From NCBI RefSeq assembly GCF_900100255.1, contig NZ_FMTS01000001.1, positions 868,001 to 932,000 of the forward strand: a stretch of 64,000 nt of DNA, in the 5' to 3' direction. Both the position numbers and the translations under genes were made by a program. Shown piece by piece: positions 12,901-48,312 of the stretch. How positions within the stretch are numbered: the stretch's first letter is position 1; each line of letters begins with the position of its first letter. The notes under the pieces are model-generated. The model searched no databases, was not told the DNA's origin, and was given only the letters and a program-made list of their open reading frames with translations. The stretch is from Asticcacaulis taihuensis. GTDB lineage: Bacteria > Pseudomonadota > Alphaproteobacteria > Caulobacterales > Caulobacteraceae.

Positions 12901-12938
12901 AAGGCCCGGTGATCAGACGATCATCGGGCCTTGTTTTG
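12901..12938 (+). terminator. Rho-independent terminator after the porin gene
   Basis: AAGGCCCGGTGATC and GATCATCGGGCCTT form a 14-base stem with one G-T pair and an AGAC loop, followed by GTTTTG. It lies 18 bases past the porin stop and before modA, and separates the two transcripts. It also rules out the upstream alternative start of modA at 12931. Confidence 0.88.
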
Positions 12939-40564: not shown

Positions 40565-41689
40565 ATGGCAAAAGTTACCGGACTGTCGGGCAATGAAATC
40601 TACTGCATGGCGCTCAAGGGCTATTCGGCCGGCGAGCTTGTGGTGGGCAACAGCGTCAATTCCATGGGCTTTCTCGGTTCGCTGGGCGCCGGGCTGAACA
40701 ATATCCTGGGCGGTGAAATCCCGCAGGTCACCCAGGCCATCCAAGACGGACGGATGCACGCCTTCGCCCGCATGGCCAAGGAGGCGCAAAATCACGGCGC
40801 TTCAGGCGTCGCCGGCGTTTCCGGTGACCTGCGCGCCTTTTCCGGCAATACGGAATTTCTGTTTGTCGGCAGTTGCGTCTTCTCGAAAAGCGGGGGCGGC
40901 GACTTCTTCACCACTGCGGGCAATGCTCAGGAACTGTGGTGCCATATGGATGCCGGTTACCGGCCGATCCAGCATGTCTTCGGCAATATCGCCTATTCCA
41001 TGGGGATTGGTGGCGGCTTTATCGGCGCGCTCAAGCAACTGGGCCGCGGCGAGATTTCGGAATATTCCGACGTCTTCAACAAGACCCGCCACAAGGCGCT
41101 GGACCGCATCACTGCGGCAGCGCGGGCCGATGGTGCCAATGCGGTGCTGGGCATCCGCACCACCATCCTGCCGTGGATGGGCACGCATGAAATGGTCATG
41201 ACCGGCACGGCGGCACATCATCCGGGCCTCGATAGTGATCATGTGGTCACCTCCGACCTGACCGGCGAGGAACTGTGGTCGATGGCAAGCCTTGGCTACG
41301 CGCCGATGAAGCTTTTGATGTCGACCTCGATCTATTCGCTGGGCCTGGTCGGCGGTATATTCTCGGCGCTCAAATCCTTTGCCAAGGGGGAGATCAGCGA
41401 ACTGACCTCACTGGTGCATGACGCCCGCGAACATGCGCTCGATCGCCTGAAGGCGGAGGCCGATTCCATCGGCGCCGAGGAGGTTGTGGGGGTGAAGACC
41501 TACATCATCGAGATCGGCCAGGGCCTGATCGAGTTCATGGCCATAGGCACGGCGGTACGCAAGGCGTCCGGCATGGCGACGGCCACGCAGATGATGCCGG
41601 CCCAAGCCATTGTCCACGACAAGGATACCTGGATGGATTCGGATATGGGCATGTCGCTGATGCGTCCGGCGGATAGCCAGGGGGCGTGA
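40565..41689 (+). CDS. Triple YbjQ (DUF74) domain protein
   Basis: Three related segments lie in tandem at about residues 1-120, 121-235 and 236-345. Each has a copy of the pattern VxNSVxSxGFxGxL / FGNIAYSMGIGGG / MSTSIYSLGLVGG, followed by GE-I--x-T/S-x-L, then H-AL-R-x-x-A-x-GA-x-V-G-V. Single YbjQ proteins form a pentameric beta barrel once proposed to bind metals. Here one chain supplies three units. AAGGAA supports the ATG at 40565. It overlaps the next gene by four bases. Confidence 0.8.
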   Translation: MAKVTGLSGNEIYCMALKGYSAGELVVGNSVNSMGFLGSLGAGLNNILGGEIPQVTQAIQDGRMHAFARMAKEAQNHGASGVAGVSGDLRAFSGNTEFLFVGSCVFSKSGGGDFFTTAGNAQELWCHMDAGYRPIQHVFGNIAYSMGIGGGFIGALKQLGRGEISEYSDVFNKTRHKALDRITAAARADGANAVLGIRTTILPWMGTHEMVMTGTAAHHPGLDSDHVVTSDLTGEELWSMASLGYAPMKLLMSTSIYSLGLVGGIFSALKSFAKGEISELTSLVHDAREHALDRLKAEADSIGAEEVVGVKTYIIEIGQGLIEFMAIGTAVRKASGMATATQMMPAQAIVHDKDTWMDSDMGMSLMRPADSQGA

Positions 41690-42264
41690 CACCGCTCCTC
41701 AATGATATTGCCGCCTGCACAGTATGCGCCACACACCTGCTATTGGGACCAAGGCCGGTGGTTCAGGCCGGCGATCCACGCGCGAAAATACGGATTATCG
41801 GTCAGGCGCCCGGCCTGAAGGTACATATGTCGGGTATCCCTTTCAATGACGCGTCAGGTGATCGTCTGCGCGACTGGCTGGGCGTGACGCCGGCGCAGTT
41901 CTATGACGAAAGCCTGTTCGCCATCATGCCGATGGGCTTCTGCTATCCTGGCCGAGGTAAAGGCGGCGACAATCCCCCGCGCCCGGAATGCGCACCGCTG
42001 TGGCATGAGCGCGTGCGCGCCACCCTGCCCGATATCAAACTGACCCTGCTCATCGGCGCATACGCGCAGGCCCATTACCTCGGCTCTCGCCGCAAGGCCA
42101 CACTGGGGGACACCGTCCGCGCCTGGCGGGACTATATTGATGACGGCTACCTGCCGCTCGTCCATCCCTCCCCTCGCAACCAGATATGGCTAAAGCGCAA
42201 TCCGTGGTTCGAGACGGAGATCGTGCCCTATCTGCGTTCCACCATAATGACAGCGCTAACATAA
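41686..42264 (+). CDS. Uracil-DNA glycosylase family protein with Fe-S ligands
   Basis: The protein should excise uracil or a related damaged base. Motif 1 reads IIGQAPGLKVHMSGIPF and motif 2 HPSPRN near residue 160. Four cysteines are spaced as in Fe-S UDGs: C11-x2-C14 and a later C-x15-C flanking YPGRGKGG. The start is GTG, overlapping the triple YbjQ stop (GTGA), hence coupled translation. Several Fe-S UDG families exist and I cannot assign the exact one. Confidence 0.85.
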   Translation: MTPLLNDIAACTVCATHLLLGPRPVVQAGDPRAKIRIIGQAPGLKVHMSGIPFNDASGDRLRDWLGVTPAQFYDESLFAIMPMGFCYPGRGKGGDNPPRPECAPLWHERVRATLPDIKLTLLIGAYAQAHYLGSRRKATLGDTVRAWRDYIDDGYLPLVHPSPRNQIWLKRNPWFETEIVPYLRSTIMTALT

Positions 42265-42321: not shown

Positions 42322-43053
42322 ATGTTTGACCGTACCCAGCGCTACCTGTTCGAGGATTTTGTCAGGGATACCCAGGCCGCCCAGACGGGCGAGGCCCTGT
42401 TCGCGCACCTGCAACGCAGCGTCAGCCAATATGGCTATGACCAGATGATTTTTTCGATCGCTCACGATCCGCTGCTGCCAAAATCTCATCAGCGGCCGAA
42501 CATCTTCAACACCTATCCGGATGACTGGCAAAAAACCTATCTGGAAAAGGACTATGCCCGTCTCGATCCGGTGCTCCACGCAGCCCTTACGCACTCTTCC
42601 GGCTTCACTTGGGAAAACCTGAAAGCCACTTCCACCTATACGCCGGCCCAGACCCGTTTCATGAACGAAGCCGTCGATGCGGGCCTGAACAATGGCATAG
42701 CCGTGCCCATGCGGGCGCTGAAGGCTGTAGGCGGAGTCGGGCTAGCGGCCTCCACACCGAATGACGGCGCATACGCCCATCTCGATCTGATCAATGCCCT
42801 GTGTACGCAGTTTTATCTGTCCTACCGCCGGCTTTACGCCCGCCCGGCGCCGACGTTCAGCCTCTCGCCCAGGGAGACGGAAGTTCTGACATGGATTGCC
42901 GCCGGGAAAACGGACGAAGAGATTGCCGTCATCCTGGGCATCAGCCGCAATACGGTCGATACCCACCTGCGCAGCATCTTCCGCAAGCTTGACGCCACCA
43001 ACCGGGTCTCGGCCGTGGTGACCGGATTGACACAGGGGCATATCTGTCCGTAA
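42322..43053 (+). CDS. LuxR-type regulator with autoinducer-binding domain (solo)
   Basis: The N-terminal domain (residues 1-165) retains ligand-pocket marks of AHL receptors: YPDDWQKTYLEKDYARLDPVL with Trp, Tyr and Asp-Pro, then FTWENL, and NNGIAVPM. The C-terminal HTH (about 178-240) reads SPRETEVLTWIAAGKTDEEIAVILGISRNTVDTHLRSIFRKL. No luxI synthase lies in the window, so it may answer to a foreign or plant signal or to a synthase elsewhere. A paralogue follows 72 bases later. Confidence 0.88.
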   Translation: MFDRTQRYLFEDFVRDTQAAQTGEALFAHLQRSVSQYGYDQMIFSIAHDPLLPKSHQRPNIFNTYPDDWQKTYLEKDYARLDPVLHAALTHSSGFTWENLKATSTYTPAQTRFMNEAVDAGLNNGIAVPMRALKAVGGVGLAASTPNDGAYAHLDLINALCTQFYLSYRRLYARPAPTFSLSPRETEVLTWIAAGKTDEEIAVILGISRNTVDTHLRSIFRKLDATNRVSAVVTGLTQGHICP

Positions 43054-43125: not shown

Positions 43126-43884
43126 ATGTTTGATTCTGAACAGCGCTATCAGTTTGAGGATTTTATCACCGACACCCGGCAGGTGACGGAGGATGCCGAT
43201 CTGTTTCGCCTGCTGAAAAAGGCCGTGGCGCAGCATGGTTATGATCGCATCAGCCTGTGGGTGATCGATGATCCGGACCTGCCGCAGCGCGTGCATGGCC
43301 GCGGCGTCCTGCACAATTTCCCCGAAGAACTGCGTGATTTCTACAAGGAAAACAACTGCGATTCCTATGATCCGGTGATGCAGGCGCTTAAGGTCCGGAC
43401 CGGCAGCCTGGACTGGGAAACACATGAAAAACGCTCTCAGTACAAACCGGCCCAGACGCGCCTTTACAATGTGGCGCGCGAGGGGGGGCTGCATAATGGG
43501 GTATCGACACCGATCTGGGGCCGCAACGGATTGATGGCCAGCCTGGGCCTGGCCTCGGCGGAAAAACAGGATGCCACCCATGCGCGCACCCAGGCCAATC
43601 TGGACCTGATCGGCGCCCTCACAGCGCAGTTTTATCTCAGCTATAAGCGGCTGAATGCCCGCCCGCCCTCACCGTACCGTCCCGCCACGGGAGTAACGCC
43701 TAAGGAAGCCGAAATCCTCAGTTGGGTGGCCTCCGGCAAGACCGATGCGGAAATCGCCATTATCCTGGGTATCAGCCGCAATACGGTCGATACACATATG
43801 CGCCATGTCTTTGCCAAGCTGGGCGCCCACAGCCGCGTAACGGCAGTGGTAAAGGCCATCGCCGAAGGTATTGTTCATCCCTGA
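43126..43884 (+). CDS. LuxR-type regulator, second tandem copy
   Basis: The protein is a diverged paralogue of the preceding gene. The start at 43126 is chosen to align MFDSEQRYQFEDF with MFDRTQRYLFEDF. In the ligand region the first conserved Trp is replaced (NFPEELRDFYKENNCDSYDPV), while Asp-Pro and LDWETH remain. The HTH (PKEAEILSWVASGKTDAEIAIILGISRNTVDTHMRHVFAKLG) is intact. The altered pocket suggests a different ligand from the first copy, or none. Confidence 0.85.
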   Translation: MFDSEQRYQFEDFITDTRQVTEDADLFRLLKKAVAQHGYDRISLWVIDDPDLPQRVHGRGVLHNFPEELRDFYKENNCDSYDPVMQALKVRTGSLDWETHEKRSQYKPAQTRLYNVAREGGLHNGVSTPIWGRNGLMASLGLASAEKQDATHARTQANLDLIGALTAQFYLSYKRLNARPPSPYRPATGVTPKEAEILSWVASGKTDAEIAIILGISRNTVDTHMRHVFAKLGAHSRVTAVVKAIAEGIVHP

Positions 43885-43970
43885 GCCTGCCGGATCACGA
43901 ATTCTCGTGATAGCGCGACACAGATGACTGTGATTGTCTTAGCCTGATGCGTAGCGTTTCAGAGGCGGAC

Positions 43971-44222
43971 ATGTCCAGCAGGGTCGAGTCAGGGAAAAAG
44001 CCTTTTCCAGAACCACTGACACATGACGAAACATGTATGGAGGTTCTTGAACGCCTGGAGGAACTGAAATGCCTGGCGCTCCAAACCGGGGATCATGAAC
44101 TGGTCGATGGCCTGGATTATGTTTTCGAACGGTTCATCACGCGCTACTGCGATTCCAAGCACGCCGAACTGAATGCCCGGATGCGCCGGCATTTCCATCC
44201 ACCCAAAGCGTATATGAATTAA
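43971..44222 (+). CDS. Small hypothetical protein downstream of the LuxR pair
   Basis: This 83-residue protein starts at the ATG at 43971 with AGAGG six bases upstream; an earlier ATG at 43947 lacks a site. The chain is helical and charged (CMEVLERLEELKCLALQTGDHELVDGLDYVFERFI), with three Cys, and ends with RRHFHPPKAYMN. No family is recognised and no export signal is seen. Confidence 0.55.
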   Translation: MSSRVESGKKPFPEPLTHDETCMEVLERLEELKCLALQTGDHELVDGLDYVFERFITRYCDSKHAELNARMRRHFHPPKAYMN

Positions 44223-44286
44223 AGACTTCGCTATTCAGGAGGCACCGCTCCGATTGGAGCTTGCACCGGGGGGCGCGGGGGGCCAG

Positions 44287-44328
44287 AATTGTCCGCACAT
44301 ACGGGAGGCAACCTATGTGCGGACAATT
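44287..44328 (+). promoter_or_regulatory. Perfect 15-base hairpin over the SRAP start codon
   Basis: AATTGTCCGCACATA (44287-44301) and TATGTGCGGACAATT (44314-44328) are exact reverse complements. The 12-base loop CGGGAGGCAACC contains the Shine-Dalgarno sequence, and the ATG start (44315) lies in the right arm. In the mRNA this would lock the start codon in a stem and expose the ribosome site in the loop. A DNA-level operator is the alternative. Confidence 0.75.
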
Positions 44329-44947
44329 TGAGGCCGCCCTCTATCTCAACTATCTGAAAAATACCCTGCACCTGCCGGATGCGCCTGATCAGGTAGAATT
44401 TGGCCAGCCGTCAAGGGTGGTGCCGACCGGCGGCGCGCCGATCGTGATCGAAAACCCGGAAAGCGGCCGGCTGGAAGTCATACTGGCGCGTTTCGGACTG
44501 ATACCGCACTGGTATTCCGGCGCATTGAAGGACTGGAAAGCCACCACCTTCAATGCAAGGCTGGATACGGTAACGGAAAAGCGTGTCTTCCAGGGGGCCT
44601 GGAAATACCGTCACGCCGTTGTGCCGGCCGATTGTTTCTATGAATGGTCCGGCGAGAAAAATACTCGCCGCAAATGGTGCCTCACGCGCGCTGACAACCA
44701 GCCCCTGGCTTTTGCCGGCCTCTGGGACTGTGCAAACCTGACGGAGGGTGAAATCTGGAGTTTCACCCTGCTGACCCGCAATGCCGGCCATGATATGGTC
44801 CCCATCCATGACCGCGAACCGGTTATACTGGCCCCGGACCAATGGGATAACTGGCTGCGTCGCAAGCCGGTCGATCTGACGGCCTCCGTATCGCTCCGGC
44901 TCCAGGCGGAAACACCCGTGGCGCCCATGCAGGGCTCGCTGTTCTGA
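44315..44947 (+). CDS. SRAP (YedK/HMCES) abasic-site DNA-protein crosslink enzyme
   Basis: The protein shields abasic sites in single-stranded DNA by forming a thiazolidine link with its Cys2. The N-terminus is MCGQF after removal of Met, the conserved Asn is in TTFNARLDTV, the glutamate in ADCFYEWSG and the active His in IHDREPVIL. All key residues are present in 210 residues. GGGAGG upstream fixes the start at 44315. A strong hairpin covers that start. A nearby uracil-DNA glycosylase, which makes abasic sites, fits the same repair theme. Confidence 0.92.
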   Translation: MCGQFEAALYLNYLKNTLHLPDAPDQVEFGQPSRVVPTGGAPIVIENPESGRLEVILARFGLIPHWYSGALKDWKATTFNARLDTVTEKRVFQGAWKYRHAVVPADCFYEWSGEKNTRRKWCLTRADNQPLAFAGLWDCANLTEGEIWSFTLLTRNAGHDMVPIHDREPVILAPDQWDNWLRRKPVDLTASVSLRLQAETPVAPMQGSLF

Positions 44948-48258: not shown

Positions 48259-48312
48259 TTGACAATGTAAACCGATCTGTTTACCTATGGCGATGTAAAC
48301 AGATCAGTTTAC
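48259..48312 (+). promoter_or_regulatory. SDR promoter with double TetR operator
   Basis: A consensus -35 TTGACA (48259-48264) is followed about 17 bases later by a TACCTA-like -10. GTAAAC-CGATCT-GTTTAC (48267-48284) and GTAAAC-AGATCA-GTTTAC (48295-48312) are two perfect palindromes, centred 28 bases apart. The first lies in the spacer, the second just past the -10. Such placing fits repression by the divergent TetR protein. Confidence 0.75.

Follow-up and report, generated by a model that had tools for sequence, protein, structure and literature searches.

A conserved leader RNA hairpin at the start of an SRAP gene in Asticcacaulis

The SRAP locus and its start-codon hairpin

The window analysed here is a stretch of 64,000 nucleotides from Asticcacaulis taihuensis (contig NZ_FMTS01000001.1 of assembly GCF_900100255.1, positions 868,001 to 932,000), and its genome is referred to as G000. 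An SRAP gene in this window is preceded by a structured leader and by several genes on the same strand, and the following features are of interest, in window coordinates:

41686-42264, plus strand: uracil-DNA glycosylase superfamily gene (PF03167, E 3.3e-25; start codon uncertain)
42322-43053, plus strand: LuxR1, second autoinducer-binding LuxR regulator
43126-43884, plus strand: LuxR2, autoinducer-binding LuxR regulator (start codon at 43126 or 43090)
43895-43910, no strand: DNA palindrome TCACGAATTCTCGTGA, also given as TCACGRATTCTCGTGA, between LuxR2 and ORF91
43947-44222, plus strand: ORF91, open reading frame for a small protein without known family, directly 5' of the leader
44247-44260, plus strand: P0, possible upstream hairpin GCTCC-GATT-GGAGC (from folds)
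44263-44276, plus strand: P1, small hairpin GCACC-GGGG-GGCGC with a GGGG loop (from the alignment)
44286-44329, plus strand: P2, start-codon hairpin with arms 44286-44301 and 44314-44329 (from sequence, fold and conservation in six genomes)
44303-44308, plus strand: likely Shine-Dalgarno sequence GGGAGG in the P2 loop, 6 nt 5' of the ATG (from sequence)
44315-44947, plus strand: SRAP gene, 210 aa, protein start MCGQF (PF02586 over residues 1-187)

The original prediction, which was made from the DNA letters, had named the gene as SRAP, and the Pfam match (PF02586, E 2.8e-46) confirms it. The domain begins with Met-Cys at the N-terminus, the mark of the HMCES/YedK family, and the sequence matched both the YedK and the HMCES structures. 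SRAP/HMCES proteins shield abasic sites through covalent attachment, so that untimely expression may be costly.

The hairpin P2 is set in a run of genes on the same strand. Its exact 15-bp core, described earlier as two perfectly complementary arms around a 12-base loop, is present at 44287-44301 (AATTGTCCGCACATA) and 44314-44328 (TATGTGCGGACAATT), the arms being 100% complementary and 12 nt apart. The outermost pair of P2 is G.U, and in the fold of G000 a lower GGCC/GGCC stem (44281-44284 with 44332-44335) lies beneath it. The sequence also bears out the placing of the start signals, as the right arm holds the ATG (44315-44317), SRAP codons 2-4 and two bases of codon 5, and the likely Shine-Dalgarno sequence lies in the loop. 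The RNA 44281-44335 is predicted to fold at -35.0 kcal/mol (z -8.4), and 0 of 200 shuffles were equally low.

Within the window, P2 is the longest of 15 perfect inverted repeats (counted from 10 bp upwards with loops of 3-40), the runners-up being 12 bp long, and 12 simulated order-2 Markov windows gave a single 13-bp repeat and nothing longer. Among 174 possible starts, taken from 59 rough gene calls, the start region at the SRAP ATG is the lowest in energy (-26.9 kcal/mol), by a narrow lead over the TTG at 12931, at the foot of another hairpin (-25.7 kcal/mol). No T run follows P2, as the 15-bp core is followed directly by TGAGGCC, and P2 thus lacks this mark of an intrinsic terminator; the terminator scan took loops of 3-8 only and says little about a hairpin with a 12-nt loop. 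Rfam gave no match for the leader, the hit over P2 in 43800-44500 being mir-147 at E 0.91, far below the gathering score. Across five loci, Rfam returned only KCNQ1OT1 (E 0.42, locus L003), away from the leader and far below the gathering score. Elsewhere in the window, an 11-bp perfect inverted repeat with a 10-nt loop that is not GC-rich (GATCTGTTTAC...GTAAACAGATC, 48274-48305) is possibly an operator.

The leader and its neighbours across genomes

The SRAP gene is common in the genus, with a match in 23 of 25 genomes. The listing of SRAP relatives held 50 places, 31 of which were read, and the 28 of these with a Met-Cys start were folded. A start hairpin was found in three (-26.9, -26.9 and -30.4 kcal/mol); the remaining 25 lie between -15.7 and -5.7 kcal/mol. 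Relatives that conserve the protein start and lack the upstream arm had been named beforehand as a finding that would speak against the idea. Genus-wide this is indeed the picture, with 25 of 28 starts lacking the arm, but it is not so within the clade that carries the leader.

That clade was delimited with pattern and covariance searches. A pattern with 9-bp exact arms found only G000, G017 and G020 among 390 family genomes, each time at SRAP, and missed three further carriers, G011, G023 and G002. The SRAP identity to G000 is 87% for G017 and 61% for G020. A covariance model built on the first three (R1) added the other three from the family genomes, at E values of 8.7e-7 to 7.4e-4. The leader is thus found in 6 of 390 family genomes, all Asticcacaulis, with one clear copy each and always at the SRAP locus. 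A second model (R2), built on the six sequences and taken up to E 1, returned the same 6 of 25 genus genomes; its other hits were echoes on the complement strand and a weak extra one in G023 (E 0.64). On 372 class genomes with stricter filters, R2 returned the window's genome alone. In a tree of the neighbouring CLC protein, the six leader genomes lie on one side of a branch (support 92/91, and 90% of bootstrap trees), and the fork of G011, G000/G017 and G002/G023 is not resolved. In the SRAP tree, queried for G000, G017 and G020 only, these three did not come together (8% of bootstrap trees).

The start hairpin was also sought more widely. In the class, a pattern with 8-bp arms matched in 12 of 385 genomes (control 1), and an SRAP frame was seen by eye in the window's own genome only. 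The class-wide pattern also met two other frames, L094 of 235 aa and L088 of 83 aa, beginning MCGRF. Viral contigs gave six pattern matches, none with an SRAP-like frame by eye. The short viral contigs L068, L069, L072 and L073 (4.1-4.8 kb) carry TCCGCACAT...ATGTGCGGA hairpins, and no SRAP-like frame was seen in them by eye. A second SRAP group (L012-L016, in G008, G014, G005, G021 and G018) has a strong terminator-like hairpin of its own (ACGCCCCCGT/ACGGGGGCGT, then T-rich), its stem ending some 18 nt 5' of the SRAP ATG. There, SRAP must start within or behind that hairpin, or be attenuated. The gene 5' of SRAP in this group we take to be TerC-like, from its sequence.

Near SRAP, LuxR genes were examined in ten genomes; the leader is present in all six with a SRAP-adjacent LuxR and absent from G010, G003, G009 and G022. 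A CLC channel gene lies 3' of SRAP on the opposite strand in 10 of 10 genomes examined in this SRAP branch. Of the leaderless four, G010, G009 and G022 have a uracil-DNA glycosylase gene abutting or overlapping SRAP; in the fourth it lies 554 nt off. In G000 and G017 this gene lies 5' of LuxR, and the LuxR genes part it from SRAP. G011 has a partial match on the opposite strand, where its stretch ends, and none was seen in the fetched stretches of G020, G023 and G002. The abutting or overlapping arrangement in three relatives (L129, L131 and L132) makes a natural pair of an abasic-site maker and its shield.

The small ORF91 has no Pfam or NCBIfam match. Five of the six genomes with the leader have it directly 5' of that leader, behind LuxR2; G020 has no match. 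All six carry the palindrome TCACGAATTCTCGTGA, altered at one position at most, 3' of the upstream LuxR gene. Counting exact and one-mismatch copies, it occupies a single place in each leader genome, plus one more in G011, and G010 and G022 each have one one-mismatch copy inside another reading frame. It is a candidate operator or promoter region of an ORF91-leader-SRAP unit, perhaps for LuxR. As an operator, it would imply that ORF91, leader and SRAP share one transcript; a weak terminator-like site at 43919-43932, between the palindrome and ORF91, counts against this.

In G000, G017 and G020 the SRAP ATG lies inside P2 and the Shine-Dalgarno sequence in its loop. The leader of G011, G023 and G002 is placed differently. 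It lies between an ORF91 homologue and a LuxR gene, and that LuxR gene stands 21-28 nt 5' of SRAP. The LuxR ATG comes 44-95 nt after P2, and P2 covers the start of no full gene. The right arm in these three genomes still reads MCGQF, likely a relic of the SRAP start. After it comes a stop in G011, a frame open into LuxR in G023 and another frame in G002; TTG replaces ATG as the relic start codon in G023 and G002. The simplest history, judged from these sequences, would be that a LuxR gene came, once or more often, between SRAP and its leader, the latter keeping the first codons.

Conservation of the leader as RNA

The conservation rests on six genomes of one genus with five distinct P2 sequences. 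P2 is the last stem of a larger conserved leader, which comprises P1 and P2 and probably also P0. In P1, CCGGGGGG is unchanged in all six genomes; G000 and G017 have an A.C mismatch in place of the middle pair. The P0 region of G020, G011, G023 and G002 folds into a stem of about 8 bp of the TCCTGA/TCAGGA type, and aligns poorly. A loop-loop (kissing) contact between P0 and P2 did not rise above shuffles. Two leader peptides were considered and found no support. The TTG frame at 44254 crosses both arms in G000 and stops at 44331, but in G020 it has only a later TTG and lacks that stop; the TTG frame at 44261, in phase with SRAP, meets a stop in G020, as read by hand.

Over the five distinct sequences, 97.8% of alignment cells are paired in P2, 96% in P1 and 97.5% in both together, where three pairs change on both sides. 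Sliding the pairing partner by 1-3 columns lowers the paired cells to 30-52%. Of the 19 pairs of P2, ten are invariant, eight have one-sided changes between a standard pair and a wobble, G002 adding a true mismatch at one of the eight, and one is changed on both sides; this last pair is not formed in G000 and G017. Pair 47-55 is gapped in part. P1 has two compensated pairs, changed on both sides, of which one is unformed in G000 and G017. Two pairs in P2 and one in P1 fail in some sequence. A first count on three genomes had found no two-sided changes. Covariation among related start regions had been proposed as a check: P1 offers two compensated pairs and P2 one two-sided pair, and the covariation score was reached by 26 of 500 shuffles, so that its statistical support is modest.

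The left arm is the informative one, because synonymous changes in the SRAP codons of the right arm are pair-keeping transitions anyway. A reading by hand, which omits alignment columns 44 and 47 with their ambiguous or gapped partners, gave six left-arm changes. Five keep the pair, all as G.U (A to G four times, C to U once), and the sixth, A to U, breaks it. Such pair-keeping changes are modest evidence for RNA over DNA, since a G.T position breaks a DNA dyad and keeps the RNA pair.

This bears on the other option of the original prediction, in which a dimeric protein would bind the inverted repeat at the SRAP start. The dyad is exact in G000 and G017, and two LuxR regulators adjoin. However, several positions are G.T in the other genomes, where the dyad is broken and the RNA pair kept. 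No regulon of P2-arm sites emerged in the window's own genome either, where the arm matched 44 times at up to three mismatches, P2's own two arms included, and the reversed pattern 45 times, and the nearby palindrome TCACGAATTCTCGTGA is more operator-like. A DNA operator at P2 is less likely than an RNA role, and we judge it very improbable. A corresponding search with TTGCACCGGGGGG at up to two mismatches gave, among the matches listed, 75 against 51 for the control in G000, 57 against 69 in G017 and 60 against 60 in G020.

G011 and G023 agree at 40 of 48 positions in P2 and 43 of 52 in P0-P1 (83% each), and between the P2 end and the LuxR ATG at 31 of 95, the same as shuffles. The identity of P2 thus persists in these two genomes without the constraint of SRAP coding. 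G000 and G017 show no difference in the 82 nt 5' of the ATG or in the initial 32 nt of SRAP, against 88 differences in the whole SRAP gene (545 of 633 positions identical). The loss of identity after P2 in the one pair and the identity around the ATG in the other show selection on the leader as a unit that ends at the P2 foot. The same evidence weighs against a chance origin, or a functionless template-switch copy of the gene start. Template switching can create short perfect inverted repeats, and the right arm is mostly dictated by the protein start MCGQF. Yet six genomes keep P2 with pair-keeping changes while flanking sequence is lost, which makes such an origin hardly credible. The earlier judgement that chance is unlikely stands, as G017 and the distant G020 both keep the left arm together with the start codon, and the changes mostly keep RNA pairs.

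Translational control and its meaning

The comparison of sequences establishes that P2 can form and is conserved in the clade, and in three genomes it would pair the SRAP start codon. We lean, at little better than an even chance, towards a leader RNA that keeps SRAP translation off by default. The transcript arriving from the LuxR/ORF91 side would fold P2 once the right arm is made. The AUG would then be held in a stem of 16-19 bp, 30S subunits would start rarely, and SRAP would be made only if P2 is opened or missing. The lock on the start codon put forward originally is the natural reading of the arm conservation, but P2 is only one stem of a larger leader. SRAP as the target of the lock fits G000, G017 and G020, but in three relatives the leader precedes LuxR; with LuxR between leader and SRAP, a kept leader would act on the start of a LuxR-SRAP unit.

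In the modelled G000 leader at 37 C, the three AUG bases are unpaired with probabilities of 0.009, 0.001 and 0.000. Temperature had been suggested as an opener. The modelled AUG stays over 93% paired from 20 to 60 C, its unpaired fraction in G000 reaching no more than 5.7% at 60 C and 11% at 70 C, so a simple RNA thermometer is unlikely; we dropped this candidate, as the start region does not melt in the model up to 60 C. Opening the region from -18 to +15 is predicted to cost 31.2 kcal/mol in G000 and 28.9 kcal/mol in G020, and 9.4-13.4 kcal/mol at four hairpin-free SRAP starts. With a cost this high, the lock must be actively opened or bypassed. Most likely, a trans factor would act on the G-rich loops of P1 and P2, or the left arm would be lost by cleavage or a late transcript start. 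Other conceivable openers are an upstream ribosome, a helicase or an sRNA. The invariant CCGGGGGG of P1 suggests a binding partner. CsrA was rejected as the opener, as PF02599 occurs in 0 of 25 genus genomes, with 3 of 14 control genomes positive.

A late start is the core of a read-through insulation, in which P2 would silence only the long LuxR transcripts and a separate promoter in the left arm or loop would yield a short mRNA open to translation. Such insulation falls under the lock, so the likelihoods of the two overlap; taken for itself, we hold it to be unlikely. The position of the P2 arm inside a same-strand gene run suits it. Modelled transcripts starting at -16 and -10 leave the first base of the AUG 0.58 and 0.93 unpaired in G000, and 0.37 and 0.99 in G020, but the G of the AUG in G020 is still paired with the start at -10 (0.014 unpaired). 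A scan of 43700-44500, blind to other promoter types, gave no sigma-70-like promoter, and TTGCAC-N17-CAGAAT of G000 has no counterpart hexamer in G020. Additionally, P1, conserved as paired RNA, sits upstream of the start of such a transcript. Precedents for insulation are phage T4 gene e (PMC3014915, in excerpt) and sigG (PMC5942855, in excerpt).

The main result against the lock is that P2 lies away from the SRAP start in G011, G023 and G002. The leader precedes LuxR there, so the sequestering of SRAP cannot be its sole role, and its conserved function may be something other than start-codon locking. This favours RNA processing or stability, with P2 serving RNase III cleavage or stabilising the LuxR-ORF91 mRNA, and the overlap with the SRAP start secondary. 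P2 is a near-perfect stem of 16-19 bp, a length usable by RNase III. A Shine-Dalgarno sequence in the loop and an ATG in the stem, as in G000, G017 and G020, should nevertheless affect translation, and processing as the main role seems to us unlikely.

The start-sequestering leader, as a kind, is well known, with T4 gene e, sigG and tisB as examples. In the T4 genes e, soc, 49 and I-TevI, the Shine-Dalgarno sequence and/or AUG lies inside an RNA helix, as here, and long transcripts are poorly translated (PMC3014915, in excerpt). However, the T4 late promoters lie just upstream and give transcripts without the 5' strand (same excerpt), whereas no sigma-70-like promoter was found here, and the Asticcacaulis leader also conserves the upstream stem P1. 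In Bacillus subtilis, a hairpin of more than 20 pairs over the start of a chromosomal gene, sigG, is similarly long and has been suggested to keep read-through mRNA of the operon before it untranslated; sigG differs in having its own promoter, whose transcript is unable to form the hairpin (PMC5942855, in excerpt). The Escherichia coli tisB mRNA likewise joins a DNA-damage-linked gene, a buried ribosome site and a structured leader. It is DNA-damage-induced and, unlike SRAP, encodes a toxin, translated via a standby site after mRNA processing (PMC7708055, in excerpt). In Caulobacter, a related genus, the C-rich loop of the sRNA GsrN pairs with the G-rich katG 5' leader and raises translation (PMC5869019, in excerpt). 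The P1 and P2 loops of the SRAP leader are likewise G-rich, and GsrN as the opener of P2 would be a lead only, by analogy with that excerpt. Listings of open-licence papers showed none that deals with a leader RNA in front of SRAP.

A wider proposal, which we put forward tentatively and regard as doubtful in its full form, is that DNA-damage tolerance is gated at translation by a clade-specific cis-regulatory RNA, which lies between LuxR regulators of the quorum-sensing type and an enzyme that protects abasic sites. The invariant GGGG-loop hairpin P1 would dock an RNA or protein that unlocks P2, and the module would have been kept when LuxR came behind it. A translational lock of this kind would keep the SRAP enzyme ready but silent and, if true, would link cell-density-type regulators to DNA-damage tolerance.
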